Part shown: one piece after another, positions 29,603 through 36,722 of the stretch | How the letters are laid out: each line of letters begins with the position of its first letter | Numbering within the stretch: position 1 is the stretch's first letter | Source: a virus | Virus record (IMG/VR): IMGVR_UViG_3300025769_000208 | Location: 1-46,521 of that record | Length of the DNA: 46,521 bases | Direction: 5' to 3' (one strand) | The notes under the pieces: generated by a model | Databases searched by the model: none | What the model was told of the DNA's origin: nothing | The model's input: only the letters and a program-made list of their open reading frames with translations | Program-made: the position numbers and the translations under genes

Positions 29603-31211
29603 AATATTAAAAGAACTTTATCACAAAACCATAAAGATCTTTGGTCCTCCCGGTACAGGCAAAACATATACATTAATAGAAAAAGTTTTAAAAAGTTATT
29701 TAAGAAAAGGTATTAGACCACAAGAGATAGCCTATCTATCATTTACAAATAAAGCAGTTAACACTGCAGTAAGAAGAGCTATGGAATCTTTTCCAAAGTA
29801 TAGCACTGAGGATTTTTCTAGATTCAAAACATTACATACTTATTGTAGAAGATATTTTCCTGAAGAAGTATTTGACCCTAAAGATTGTACAATTGATTTT
29901 GCTTTACAAACTAAAGTAATTAAATCTAGTGATAAAAGATTAGCAGATGATAACTTTATGTATAAAGACTGGTCATTAGGAGTATACAGTAAAGCTAGAA
30001 ATTTATTAATCGCACCAGAAGAAGCATATAAACAAGAAGCCTATAAGAGAGATTCACTTACTGTATTTTTAAGAAAGATAAGTACCTATGAACATTACAA
30101 GGTCGGTGGAGGAGAAAGATCATTTATAGATTTTGATGACATGATTGAAAGAGCTATCAAAGAAGTAGACTTTCCTTCATTAAAAGTTTTAATATTAGAT
30201 GAAGCTCAAGATTGTACACCTCTTCAATGGTCTGTTATTTATAAGATGGCATCTAAAGTAGATAGAATATATTTAGCAGGAGATGATGATCAAGCCATAT
30301 ATAAATGGAATGGAGCTGACCCAAAATATTTTACTCAATTCTTTCCTGGTCGTAAAGTAAAGTTAAGAAGAACTCAGAGATTCGGTGAGGCCATACATAG
30401 ATTTTCTCAAGTAATTAGAAGAGGTATTAGTGACAGTGAAGAAAAAGAATACCTACCGGGAGGAAGTAAAGGATTTGTTAAAGCTTATCTATCATTTAAA
30501 GAAATACCTTTTGAAACATTTAACGAGGATTGGTACATATTGGGACGTATCAATGAAACTGTAAATGAACTTAGAATGTTAGCAAAAGATGCTGGTCTTT
30601 ATTACAAAGATAACAAAGGTACAAAATGTTTTGACCAGAAACAATGGGAGGCTATCAAGGCATGGACTGCAATTACCAAAAATAAAAAGATTGATAAAAA
30701 AGCAGCAAGAAACATGTATAAATATATTAGAGAATTAGAAGACCCTAATTATAGGTTAGATAAATTTTGGAGAGCAGAACCTGATTTAAGAGATTATGAT
30801 TTTCAAACATTAAAAGAATGGTGTGGACTTACATTAGAAGATAATCAAAAAGATAAACCTTGGTATTGGATATTAAGAAGAAATTTTAAACCTAGACAAG
30901 TAAGACATTTTATAAGATTACTAAGAAGATATGGACAAAAAGAATTAGATAAAGATCCGTTAATAACTATAGATACAATTCATAGTGTTAAGGGTGGAGA
31001 GGCTAATCATGTTGTATTGTATGGTAAGGGAAACTATCCATCTGACTATAAACATAAAAATAAAAAAGAAAAAAGTGATGAACGAAAAGTTTGGTATACT
31101 GGTGCAACTAGAGCAAGAAAAACTTTACATTTACTAAGATCTGACTATAAGTTTAACTATCCGATTGGACAAGACTATTTAATATATATACAGGAGAAAA
31201 ATGACAAATAA
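29568..31211 (+). CDS. UvrD/Rep-type superfamily 1 helicase
   Basis: The motifs are clear: Walker A GPPGTGKT (26-33), AYLSFTNKAVNTA (Ia), FKTLHTYCRRYF, IDFDDMIERA, VLILDEAQDCTPLQW (Walker B, D211-D215), YLAGDDDQAIYKWNGA (III), LRRTQRFGEAIH (IV), TIDTIHSVKGGEANHVVL (V) and VWYTGATRARKTLHLL (VI). The 547-residue enzyme is the likely replicative or recombination 3'-5' helicase. Its first 35 bases overlap the primase end, and its stop overlaps the DUF3310 gene. Confidence 0.9.
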   Translation: MKNSTQESLELKILKELYHKTIKIFGPPGTGKTYTLIEKVLKSYLRKGIRPQEIAYLSFTNKAVNTAVRRAMESFPKYSTEDFSRFKTLHTYCRRYFPEEVFDPKDCTIDFALQTKVIKSSDKRLADDNFMYKDWSLGVYSKARNLLIAPEEAYKQEAYKRDSLTVFLRKISTYEHYKVGGGERSFIDFDDMIERAIKEVDFPSLKVLILDEAQDCTPLQWSVIYKMASKVDRIYLAGDDDQAIYKWNGADPKYFTQFFPGRKVKLRRTQRFGEAIHRFSQVIRRGISDSEEKEYLPGGSKGFVKAYLSFKEIPFETFNEDWYILGRINETVNELRMLAKDAGLYYKDNKGTKCFDQKQWEAIKAWTAITKNKKIDKKAARNMYKYIRELEDPNYRLDKFWRAEPDLRDYDFQTLKEWCGLTLEDNQKDKPWYWILRRNFKPRQVRHFIRLLRRYGQKELDKDPLITIDTIHSVKGGEANHVVLYGKGNYPSDYKHKNKKEKSDERKVWYTGATRARKTLHLLRSDYKFNYPIGQDYLIYIQEKNDK

Positions 31212-31464
31212 AGATTTATTCGATGAAAGTTTTCCTAATGATAAGCAGATTGGAGGATCTCACTACAAGCAGTTTTTGATTCAGCCCTGGACATTTATAA
31301 GAAAGAACAATTTAAATCCATTACAAGCAAATATAATTAAATATGTATGTAGATATTTATCTAAAGGTAAACCCTTAGAAGATTTAGAAAAAATAAAACA
31401 TTACTGTGATTTAGAAATAAAACATCTAAAAGATCGTAAGGATGACAAAAAGAAAAAAAATTAA
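31201..31464 (+). CDS. DUF3310 protein (T7 gp1.7-like)
   Basis: The 87-residue product has the family core: GGSHYKQFLIQPWTFI, NNLNPLQANIIKYVCRYLSKGKPLEDLEKIKHYCDLEI. In T7, gp1.7 belongs to this family and is linked to nucleotide kinase activity. The full-length core is present with a basic Lys/Asp tail. It probably supports nucleotide supply in replication. Confidence 0.85.
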   Translation: MTNKDLFDESFPNDKQIGGSHYKQFLIQPWTFIRKNNLNPLQANIIKYVCRYLSKGKPLEDLEKIKHYCDLEIKHLKDRKDDKKKKN

Positions 31465-31621: not shown

Positions 31622-33496
31622 ATGAGTAATGGATTACAACTTACATTAACTTTTAAAAAATCAATGTGGAATACTCCTAGTGAGTACAAAGACTTATCTC
31701 AATACAAAGAAATAGCGATTGATTTAGAAACTAGAGACGATGGTATTAATGAAAGACTTGGAGCTGGTTGGGCTTTAGGTAAGGGGGAGATAGTAGGATT
31801 TGCAGTAGCAGTAGAAGGATGGAAAGGTTATTTTCCTTTTGGTCATCTAGGTGGTGGCAACATGATACCTGAACAAGTAAAGAAATATATGAAAGATGTA
31901 TGTGCTTTACCGAATACTAAAATATTTCATAATGCTCAATACGATGTAGGTTGGTTACAAGCATCTGGTATCACGGTCAACGGACCTATAGTTGATACAA
32001 TGATTGCAGCTGCACTTATAAATGAGAATAGATTTTCGTATTCATTAAATGCATTATCAGTAGATTACTTAAACGAGATAAAAGCTGAGACAGAACTTAG
32101 AGAGGCTGCAGCAGCACATGGTATTGACCCTAAGGCAGAGATGTGGAAGTTACCAGCAGAGCATGTGGGTTATTATGCAGAACAGGATGCAGAACTTACT
32201 TTAAAATTATGGCAAAGATTTAAACACGAAATAACTTCACAAAGTTTAATTACTGTATGGGAAATGGAGCAGCAACTGCTTCCGATATTAATAAAGATGC
32301 GTCAACGAGGAGTGAGAGTCCAAGTGGAAAAAGCTGCAGAATTACAAAAAGAAATGAAGCTCCAAGAAAAAGAAATACTATTGGATATACAGAAAGAAAT
32401 AGGAATAGAAATAGATATTTGGGCACCCCGCCAGATTGCCAAAGCTTTTGACAAATTGAAGTTAGAATACCCGCGAACCGAAAAAACAAAAGAACCTTCC
32501 TTTACACAAAATTGGTTGATTAATAATAAAAACAAAATAGCACAACTTATTGTAAGTGCAAGAGAAGTTAATAAATTTCATGGAACTTTTTTATCATCTA
32601 TTATGAAATACCAAGTTAATGGGAGGATACACGGAGAGATCAATCAGTTGAGAGGAGATAATGGAGGTACAGTTTCTGGTAGACTTTCAATGAGTAATCC
32701 AAATTTACAACAAGTACCATCTAGAAATAAAGATTTTGGTCCCAAGATAAGAAGTCTATTTATTCCTGAAGAAGGCCATAAGTGGGGTAGCTTTGATTAT
32801 TCTCAACAAGAACCAAGAATGACAGTGCATTATGCAGCTTCAATCGGAGATGGTTATGAGGGTTCAAACGAATTAGTGGATGCTTATCAAAATGCCAGTG
32901 CAGACTTTCATCAGACAGTTGCTGACTTAGTTGGAATAGATAGAACTCAAGCAAAAACAATTGGCTTAGGTTTAATGTATGGAATGGGAAAAAACAAATT
33001 AGCTAATTCTCTTGGTGTTAGTAAAGATGAAGCCAATGAATTAATTATTAAATACAATAAAAAAGTACCCTTTGTTAAAAAACTTTCAGATAGATGTAAG
33101 TATGCAGCAGATGAAAAGGGAGTTATCAGAACTAAAAAAGGTAGAAAATGTAGGTTTGATATGTGGGAAACTAGAGACTTCGGCTTACACCAAGCAGAAA
33201 AATATGAAGATGCAGTAGCCAAATATGGTAAAGATAATATTAAAAGAGCATACACATACAAAGCTTTGAACAGATTAATTCAAGGATCTTCAGCTGATCA
33301 AACAAAACAATCAATGTTGGATTGTTATAATGCTGGTCATTTACCTATGTTACAAATACATGATGAGTTATGTTTTAATATCAAAGATGAAGCTCATGCA
33401 AAAGAAATACAAAAGTTAATGCAAAACACAATTGAATTTAAAGTACCAAGTGTAGTTGAATACGGCCTTGGAGAAAGTTGGGGAGATGCTAAATAA
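31622..33496 (+). CDS. polA: DNA polymerase I (family A) with 3'-5' exonuclease
   Basis: The 624-residue enzyme has an N-terminal proofreading domain (AIDLETRDDG with D34/E36; FHNAQYDVGWLQ; YYAEQDAELTLKLW). The polymerase core shows motif A WGSFDYSQQEPRM (D392), motif B RTQAKTIGLGLMYG (K445, Y453) and motif C LQIHDELCF (D581/E582). The residue equivalent to E. coli F762 is Leu (L449). There is no 5' nuclease domain and no DnaJ-like zinc insert. It is the phage replicase. Confidence 0.92.
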   Translation: MSNGLQLTLTFKKSMWNTPSEYKDLSQYKEIAIDLETRDDGINERLGAGWALGKGEIVGFAVAVEGWKGYFPFGHLGGGNMIPEQVKKYMKDVCALPNTKIFHNAQYDVGWLQASGITVNGPIVDTMIAAALINENRFSYSLNALSVDYLNEIKAETELREAAAAHGIDPKAEMWKLPAEHVGYYAEQDAELTLKLWQRFKHEITSQSLITVWEMEQQLLPILIKMRQRGVRVQVEKAAELQKEMKLQEKEILLDIQKEIGIEIDIWAPRQIAKAFDKLKLEYPRTEKTKEPSFTQNWLINNKNKIAQLIVSAREVNKFHGTFLSSIMKYQVNGRIHGEINQLRGDNGGTVSGRLSMSNPNLQQVPSRNKDFGPKIRSLFIPEEGHKWGSFDYSQQEPRMTVHYAASIGDGYEGSNELVDAYQNASADFHQTVADLVGIDRTQAKTIGLGLMYGMGKNKLANSLGVSKDEANELIIKYNKKVPFVKKLSDRCKYAADEKGVIRTKKGRKCRFDMWETRDFGLHQAEKYEDAVAKYGKDNIKRAYTYKALNRLIQGSSADQTKQSMLDCYNAGHLPMLQIHDELCFNIKDEAHAKEIQKLMQNTIEFKVPSVVEYGLGESWGDAK

Positions 33497-33917
33497 AAAA
33501 AACATACCACACAATAACCAAGATATGATTGCATATGCTGCAGGATTATTTGATGGTGAAGGTAATATTAATTATGCTCAATACAATTGTAAAAATCCGT
33601 CTGGTAAAATTTATAAAAAATGGAATGTAGCTATGGAAGTAGCAATGACAGATTTAGATTGTATTAAAAATTTTTATGATATTGTTCAAGTTGGGTCTAT
33701 ACATTTTAAAGGTATTGGTAAAGGTTCATTAGGTAAAAAAGATCAATGGAGATGGAGATGCTCACATCAAAAAGCATTACATTTAGCAAAATTATTTTTA
33801 CCTTATGCAGTAGCTAAAAGAGAAAAGTTATTTAAAATTATAAACCATTATGAGTTTAAAAAGCCGACAGAAGCCCTAAGTAAAAAGTTTCCTTTTTTAA
33901 AACTTAAGAAAAGTTAA
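33486..33917 (+). CDS. LAGLIDADG-type homing endonuclease (single motif)
   Basis: ATG 33486 lies inside the polymerase stop region, with a GGGGAG just ahead (ORF extension to 33456 is in the polymerase). The product carries YAAGLFDGEGNINYA, a LAGLIDADG motif with the catalytic acidic residue, and a basic C-terminal half (DQWRWRCSHQKALHLAKLFLPYAVAKREKLFKI). One motif implies a homodimer. A free-standing homing endonuclease next to polA is a familiar mobile intruder in phages. It ends convergent with the leftward island. Confidence 0.75.
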   Translation: MLNKKNIPHNNQDMIAYAAGLFDGEGNINYAQYNCKNPSGKIYKKWNVAMEVAMTDLDCIKNFYDIVQVGSIHFKGIGKGSLGKKDQWRWRCSHQKALHLAKLFLPYAVAKREKLFKIINHYEFKKPTEALSKKFPFLKLKKS

Positions 33918-35514: not shown

Positions 35515-35683
35515 AGAGTTTTTTACAATAGAGCTAGATCACCAAACTAATAACATAACCTTATATGTTAATGGTGAGATTAGAAATAAAATACATTCTA
35601 TGAAAGCAGAATCTTTATTTGATAGAATGCTTAAAATAGCAAAACAAAAGTTCTTAAAAATGAGAGAACGAATTGAACAATAA
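35486..35683 (+). CDS. Small hypothetical protein (65 aa)
   Basis: ATG 35486 is chosen because GGAG (35476-35479) lies 6 bases ahead; the ATG at 35474 is earlier in frame. The product has a beta hairpin (FTIELDHQTNNITLYVNGEIRNKI) and a basic helix. The TAA lies within the first codons of the methyltransferase. Confidence 0.5.
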   Translation: MSDPKEIKAKEFFTIELDHQTNNITLYVNGEIRNKIHSMKAESLFDRMLKIAKQKFLKMRERIEQ

Positions 35684-36722
35684 ACTTAAGGTATTAGATT
35701 TATTCAGTGGGATTGGAGGCTTTAGTTTAGGTCTTCACTCCACTGGTATATTTGATACAGTAAAGTTTGTAGAGTTTGATAAATTTTGTCAGAAAGTTTT
35801 AGAAAAAAATTTTCCTGATGTACCAATAGAAGGAGATATAAGAGATGTCAAAGGAGAAGAATTTGAAGCAGATGTCATTACTGGAGGATTCCCATGCCAA
35901 CCATTCAGTGTTGCAGGAAAACAAAAAGGAACAGATGACAACAGATATCTCTGGCCAGAAATGTTTAGACTCATTAAAGAAATTAAACCAGAGTTCGTTA
36001 TTGGGGAGAATGTGCAAGGTCTTATTAACCTCCAAAACGGCATGGTACTCCGACAGGTGCAAAACCAATTGGAGAGTGAAGGTTTCGAAGTCCAATGTTT
36101 CCTTATTCCAGCTTCAGGCATCGGTGCTTGGCATCAAAGGAATAGAGTCTGGATTATTGGCCACTCCAAACACAATGGATTACTTGCCTCCGAGAAGCGT
36201 TCAAGGGACAAAGAAATTAATGGAGGGACACAGAAAGGGCAGAACCAAACCATCGAATCTGAGGGAACAAGTGGATCCAATAACAATGGCAATGTATCCA
36301 ACACCATCGGCCAGTTGTCAGATGGATGTAGTAGCCCCACCAGAAACAGTAAAAAAGAATTCATCAGGTTGGAGTGTAACGAGGGTTGGGACTGGCAGAA
36401 AGTTCGGAGCCAAACTGAACGATGTAGTGAACAAGCTATGGCCGACACCGAGACAGAGGGATTACAAAGATGCAGCATATCAACCGACTTGGAAGGAAGC
36501 CAGAGATCAAGCAACAATATTACCGAGGCAAGTACTGAAGAACAATACACCTGGTGGCAAACTCAATCCAACCTTTGTGGAGTTCCTGATGGGATTTCCA
36601 GAGAATTGGACAAAAATCGATCCAACAGAATAAAAAGTTTAGGTAATGCAATCGTCCCACAATGTGCAAGAATCTTAGGTCTAGCTATTAAAAAAGTTTT
36701 AATTGAAGAGGGAAGAGAATGA
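35673..36722 (+). CDS. dcm: C5-cytosine DNA methyltransferase
   Basis: TTG 35673 starts the frame. Motifs: I DLFSGIGGF (9-17), IV GGFPCQPFSVAG with catalytic C75, VI GENV (111-114), VIII QRNRVWII (155-162), then a hydrophilic target-recognition region (about 163-325) and motif X-like SLGNAIVPQCARILG near the end. The product would methylate cytosine in phage DNA. From about 35850 to 36650 the DNA is clearly richer in GC than flanks. A second, 262-codon open frame overlaps most of it (35845-36633). Confidence 0.85.
   Translation: MNNKLKVLDLFSGIGGFSLGLHSTGIFDTVKFVEFDKFCQKVLEKNFPDVPIEGDIRDVKGEEFEADVITGGFPCQPFSVAGKQKGTDDNRYLWPEMFRLIKEIKPEFVIGENVQGLINLQNGMVLRQVQNQLESEGFEVQCFLIPASGIGAWHQRNRVWIIGHSKHNGLLASEKRSRDKEINGGTQKGQNQTIESEGTSGSNNNGNVSNTIGQLSDGCSSPTRNSKKEFIRLECNEGWDWQKVRSQTERCSEQAMADTETEGLQRCSISTDLEGSQRSSNNITEASTEEQYTWWQTQSNLCGVPDGISRELDKNRSNRIKSLGNAIVPQCARILGLAIKKVLIEEGRE
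35845..36633 (+). CDS. Overprinted ORF in the C5 methyltransferase gene (262 aa)
   Basis: This frame lies fully inside the methyltransferase gene in the +1 register. Its product has protein-like elements: LFQLQASVLGIKGIESGLLATPNTMD, RKGRTKPSNLREQV, MYPTPSA, LWPTPRQRDYKD, LPRQV and a terminal LNPTFVEFLMGFPENWT. I recall the LNPTFVEFLMGFPxxWT ending and the LLPTPTxxD elements from many phage and bacterial proteins annotated as methyltransferases. A 262-codon stop-free stretch is striking in an AT-rich genome. It may be translated on its own, joined by frameshift, or be a by-product of local composition. Confidence 0.4.
   Translation: MSKEKNLKQMSLLEDSHANHSVLQENKKEQMTTDISGQKCLDSLKKLNQSSLLGRMCKVLLTSKTAWYSDRCKTNWRVKVSKSNVSLFQLQASVLGIKGIESGLLATPNTMDYLPPRSVQGTKKLMEGHRKGRTKPSNLREQVDPITMAMYPTPSASCQMDVVAPPETVKKNSSGWSVTRVGTGRKFGAKLNDVVNKLWPTPRQRDYKDAAYQPTWKEARDQATILPRQVLKNNTPGGKLNPTFVEFLMGFPENWTKIDPTE

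Follow-up and report, generated by a model that had tools for sequence, protein, structure and literature searches.

The window analysed here was the whole of IMG/VR virus record IMGVR_UViG_3300025769_000208 (46,521 bases), and the locus in question is a gene for a C5-cytosine methyltransferase (C5-MTase) inside which a second long open reading frame (ORF) runs in the +1 frame. The two ORFs, hereafter frame A and frame B, lie where an earlier reading of this DNA (the original prediction) had placed them: frame A encodes 349 amino acids (aa) from a TTG start, and frame B, at +1 relative to it, encodes 262 aa from an ATG start. The protein words that had been quoted for each frame were also present in them as claimed. 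The features of the locus are as follows.

35673..36722, + strand: frame A, catalytic (alpha-like) chain of a C5-cytosine methyltransferase, bearing motifs I-VIII and X (PF00145, PHROG_363, AlphaFold/Foldseek)
35845..36633, + strand: frame B, overprinted +1 ORF, the proposed recognition/motif IX subunit (beta-like) (PHROG_1008; purifying selection in three clades; present across the family loci)
35830..35835, + strand: Shine-Dalgarno site AAGGAG, 9 nucleotides (nt) upstream of the frame B start codon
35883..35903, + strand: motif IV of frame A (GGFPCQP), which includes the catalytic cysteine, on DNA that also codes for the N-terminal part of frame B (alignment)
36135..36158, + strand: frame A motif VIII (QRNRVWII), the last catalytic-domain motif ahead of the linker
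36157..36561, + strand: tandem PTP modules of frame B (LATPN at 36157, YPTPS at 36295, WPTPR at 36439), on the DNA of the low-complexity linker of frame A (module scan, pLDDT, silent-site test)
36562..36612, + strand: motif IX-like sequence of frame B, LNPTFVEFLMGFPENWT (profile-profile match)
36627..36662, + strand: motif X of frame A (RIKSLGNAIVPQ), which follows the frame B motif IX along the DNA, the order of a canonical enzyme

Frame A was recognised as a C5-MTase, matching PF00145 (1.7e-55, Pfam profile search) and PHROG_363 (3.6e-75). Motifs I (binding S-adenosylmethionine), IV (PCQ), VI (ENV) and VIII (QxRxR) were all found, with residues that are invariant or nearly so across the family, and in the family alignment Cys75 and its neighbours were invariant. 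When frame A was aligned to a profile of ordinary C5-MTases with hhalign, its motifs I-VIII fell on columns 5-172 and its motif X on columns 308-334, and the alignment skipped the recognition region and motif IX. In a pattern scan no family member had motif IX in its frame A, the four pattern matches that were obtained falling in the linker and being false; the same pattern was passed by frame A of 40 of the 62 ordinary PF00145 control loci, and motif IX variants were visible by eye in several of the remaining 22. The original prediction had not noticed that motif IX is absent from frame A and that frame B has a motif IX-like sequence. The stretch between motifs VIII and X is a low-complexity, unconserved linker, and in the AlphaFold model, where the catalytic domain was mostly confident, residues 181-313 were disordered, with a predicted local distance difference test score (pLDDT) of about 24-37. 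About 165 columns of this model were aligned by Foldseek with M.HaeIII and M.HhaI, and only with their catalytic domain.

Frame B matched PHROG_1008, which carries the name 'DNA methyltransferase', over nearly its whole length (8.3e-27), and tblastn retrieved relatives with about 27-36% identity over up to 99% of its length from distant phages (Paenibacillus and Lacticaseibacillus phages, and marine and freshwater podoviruses); every one of these relatives that was inspected lay at +1 to a C5-MTase. Its xPTPx motifs number three in the window and from 0 to 7 per family member, mostly 2-4, and close relatives differ by the gain or loss of whole PTP modules. The only columns of the ordinary C5-MTase profile with which the C-terminus of frame B aligned were 281-298, where motif IX lies (E 0.0022, HHalign probability 13%), and the pattern of this motif IX-like sequence recurs in most family members. 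Taken across both frames, the order of motifs on the DNA is canonical: I-VIII, recognition region, IX and X.

The openness of frame B goes far beyond what chance would give, and it could not be ascribed to base composition alone. The GC content of the locus is above that of its flanks (0.40-0.46 vs 0.26-0.32), as the original prediction had noticed, and it had been proposed that this lowers the frequency of stop codons. However, when the codons of frame A were shuffled among synonymous positions, which keeps the composition, frame B was not open in any of 50,000 permutations (mean 9.4 stops). Redrawing the codons of frame A from the usage of the window, 20,000 times, also never left frame B open (mean 14.7 stops). 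Among 61 ordinary C5-MTase controls, the longest open run in the +1 frame was 142 codons and the median was 45.

If frame A alone mattered, changes between relatives would be expected to pile up at its third codon positions. This was seen outside the overlap, but in the stretch from motif VIII to motif IX the commonest change was at the first position of frame A, which is the third position of frame B. A silent-site test using the fourfold-degenerate sites of 51 disjoint pairs from the window clade gave a frame A divergence of 0.264 before frame B, 0.098 over motifs IV-VIII, 0.041 in the PTP region, 0.157 at the motif IX end and 0.293 after frame B; the corresponding divergence of frame B in the PTP region was 0.195. 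This pattern was repeated in a second, Bacteroidota-like viral clade and in a set of bacterial genome loci. Ordinary MTases exhibited a flat fourfold divergence of 0.59-0.68 with no dip, a comparison of shape and not of level, as the control pairs were more diverged than the family pairs. Over the PTP region frame B was better conserved than frame A in 46/49 pairs of the window clade and 18/19 pairs of the second clade, and in only 12/21 pairs of the bacterial set.

In about 30 loci, a count that includes a few unrelated long extensions, frame B continues for 125-170 aa beyond the stop codon of frame A (locus records L015:3988-4500, L025, L103, L163, L233, L240 and others), and there it is read over DNA that has no frame A. 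These loci share a conserved extension, with a further PTP module in several; its variation at the first, second and third frame B codon positions was 0.257, 0.176 and 0.405, highest at the third. Some of the extensions end in a conserved domain (...TTIDHWLRSDHCFAYPT..W..IKPYL...), which matched no Pfam family.

Frame B was also found to have a Shine-Dalgarno site of its own. In the window clade GGAG was present 5-13 nt upstream of 68/70 distinct frame B starts, compared with a background of 15% for the other ATGs in the same genes, and the 18-base site containing AAGGAG is unique in the window. The Shine-Dalgarno site is kept despite variation in the frame A codons that encode it (GAA-GGA or GAG-GAG). 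The second clade had no Shine-Dalgarno site at the corresponding place; such an absence would suit Bacteroidota hosts. Frame B is almost certainly a translated protein under selection. True overprinting, which was one of the possibilities raised by the original prediction, is strongly supported, frame B being conserved and under purifying selection in three clades. The possibility that conservation of one frame had merely been carried over into the other is refuted, as frame B is the better conserved over motifs VIII-IX and the silent sites of frame A are frozen. Silent-site constraint was computed in both frames, and the result was not the unconstrained frame B beside a constrained frame A that would have marked frame B as a by-product.

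Family loci were fetched with the frame B protein and, to avoid ascertainment through it, also with the frame A protein and with the motif IV/VI patterns of frame A. Frame B was present at +1 in 302/302 family locus records (which include overlapping contigs and are not independent events), one of them truncated by the end of its contig, and all 153 records fetched through the frame A protein had frame B. The sole record below threshold is most likely L286, in which the contig ends inside the gene. No frame B was found in the 62 ordinary PF00145 control loci, and no family locus had frame B apart from frame A. Ten rows classed as 'separate' were considered as loci with frame B but without frame A and were rejected, since the separation came from domain splitting and both ORFs overlap there as well.

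The layout of frames A and B is widespread and is mostly annotated as one gene. Gene 58 of E. coli phage N15 (L374:44546-45541) has an overprinted frame that is open for 242 codons, contains PTP modules and finishes in a motif IX-like sequence; here and in BASEL phage Bas74, which shares the layout, only frame A is annotated. In Paenibacillus phages and coliphage K1G, with the same layout, both frames are annotated. Family loci also turned up in the assembled genomes of bacteria from many groups and on two archaeal metagenome-assembled genome contigs; these assembly loci are probably prophages or binned virus contigs. Frame B-like sequences lay on contigs binned as Lokiarchaeota and Heimdallarchaeota (L103 and L142); they may be archaeal virus genes or may come from mis-binned bacteriophage contigs. 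A further one (hit H147, 31065-31307) was present in HQ332136.1, whose name assigns it to a virus of the alga Dunaliella; its presence may mean that this record really belongs to a bacteriophage.

The absence of motif IX from frame A, together with the motif IX-like sequence in frame B, makes the two products look like complementary subunits. That frame B is conserved, is under purifying selection and has a motif content complementary to that of frame A is strongly supported by the sequence comparisons, and we consider it highly probable that the locus is a split, overprinted C5-MTase in which frame A encodes the catalytic subunit and frame B the recognition/motif IX subunit of a putative heterodimer. 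Frame A would give the catalytic polypeptide (motifs I-VIII and X), with a disordered linker replacing the recognition domain. Frame B, translated in the +1 frame from its own internal ribosome-binding site, would give a second polypeptide; with its recognition modules (the PTP repeats) and motif IX, this chain would dock on the first to form the active enzyme. Since the motifs keep their canonical order on the DNA, the locus may have arisen when the central part of an ancestral gene with a single frame slid over to +1, in which case the N-terminal third of frame B and the linker of frame A would be overprinted additions. The enzyme would most likely serve to protect phage DNA from host restriction. 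The suggestion in the original prediction that target recognition is at stake fits frame B. More tentatively, and with rather more doubt than confidence on our part, the PTP repeats might be interchangeable, separately specific recognition modules that are gained, lost and swapped as happens in multispecific methyltransferases, although here they would sit on an overprinted subunit of their own. If so, each change in specificity would simultaneously rewrite the linker of the catalytic protein, and some lineages would have moved extra modules beyond the catalytic gene.

Several results weigh against frame B being a recognition subunit. No Pfam or NCBIfam family was found to cover it in profile searches. 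The motif IX match to the ordinary C5-MTase profile is short and weak, as its HHalign probability indicates. AlphaFold prediction of frame B alone, with 95 sequences, gave a poor model (pLDDT 61, predicted template modelling score 0.34), Foldseek matched this model to no solved structure in the PDB, and sequence searches of the PDB with frame B and with its profile found nothing. Because the isolated model is poor and no solved structure was matched, a recognition fold for frame B is putative; of the structure predictions of both products, which had been suggested as a check, the one for frame B alone was uninformative. The poor model and the lack of a known fold would also suit a protein selected for some other role (an inhibitor, a chaperone, a regulator of the MTase or an unrelated phage protein), with the linker of frame A recognising the DNA. 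We regard this as unlikely, since frame A has no motif IX and its linker is low-complexity, unconserved and predicted to be disordered, since the motif IX-like sequence at the end of frame B lies where the DNA of a canonical enzyme would have motif IX, and since frame B always occurs together with frame A.

Less likely again is a single chimeric polypeptide produced by programmed frameshifting, with a shift to +1 after motif VIII and possibly a shift back ahead of motif X, an idea that the original prediction had put forward as a means of swapping the tail. The canonical order of motifs across both frames speaks for such a product. Against it, an ATG with a conserved Shine-Dalgarno site of its own opens frame B some 100 codons ahead of the switch point, and the silent sites of frame A are also suppressed over the N-terminal part of frame B, which would be purposeless in a chimera. 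Moreover, frame B runs past the frame A stop codon in many relatives, and a full enzyme would need two shifts. That frame B is an open by-product of frame A conservation and base composition is barely credible and is refuted by the silent-site test, unless all three clades shared one artefact. Streptococcus phages MM1 and 5093, with a shorter open +1 ORF over motifs IV-VIII and a frame A that keeps motif IX, indicate that open +1 stretches do arise there, but synonymous shuffles never leave frame B open, the silent sites of frame A are frozen where frame B overlaps, conservation over the PTP region is higher in frame B than in frame A, and ordinary MTase controls show none of these signals.

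C5-MTases that work as two chains are known, namely M.AquI and M.EcoHK31I (PMC3404938), and artificially split enzymes also work as two chains (PMC3404938, PMC5944983). M.AquI (CYCGRG) resembles the split, overprinted C5-MTase proposed here in being naturally divided into two chains (PMC3404938), but in enzymes of its type motif X is on the second chain, whereas here motif X stays in frame A and frame B is overprinted on frame A. In M.EcoHK31I the large polypeptide has motifs I-VIII and X, and motif IX is on a small second polypeptide (PMC3404938). Likened by motif layout, M.EcoHK31I (YGGCCR) is the nearest system, its large chain having motifs I-VIII and X without IX; it differs in that its recognition domain is predicted to be in the large subunit, whereas here the middle of the large subunit is apparently disordered and the modular region is in frame B, and in that it belongs to a restriction system whereas frames A and B form a phage gene. 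The gene for its small subunit is presumably nested, in a different frame, within that for the large one.

Among catalogued phage genes, PHROG_1008 is the family of frame B, but its name is silent on its being the other frame of a C5-MTase and on the motif IX-like end. The same layout, with both frames annotated, is found in Escherichia phage K1G (ORF31/ORF30) and in the MTase pairs of Paenibacillus larvae phages, but the function given to the second is only methyltransferase or 'Mte8-like'. Overlapping C5-MTase ORFs have been remarked on in the Streptococcus 5093-group phages and phage MM1, where, as here, two C5-MTase reading frames are annotated on one stretch of DNA (PMC5601072). These were rejected as the same arrangement, because in MM1 and 5093 a normal motif IX (RKLTPRECWRLQGFPD) is retained in frame A and the +1 ORF, about 140-160 codons over motifs IV-VIII (L372:7480-8637, L373:6067-7026), covers only the N-terminal motifs and looks like a by-product. 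MM1 ORF14 is annotated as a methyltransferase although it is apparently such a by-product. A literature search among openly licensed papers found no paper on the A/B arrangement for phages at large.

If the proposed explanation is correct, the C5-MTases of a large group that is common in phages and prophages would be overprinted two-subunit enzymes and not single enzymes, with a second gene that is mostly absent from annotation or is filed as a separate family without explanation. Anyone who cloned or deleted such a gene going by the annotated frame only, or who recoded it, would unknowingly ruin the partner frame, so that active phage methyltransferases could look inactive. The overlap is also unusually clean and long (about 260 codons), with each frame more constrained in a different segment, and may be useful for the study of how overlapping genes arise and persist.

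Elsewhere in the window, a LAGLIDADG endonuclease-like ORF (33456-33917) was found immediately behind a family A DNA polymerase gene.
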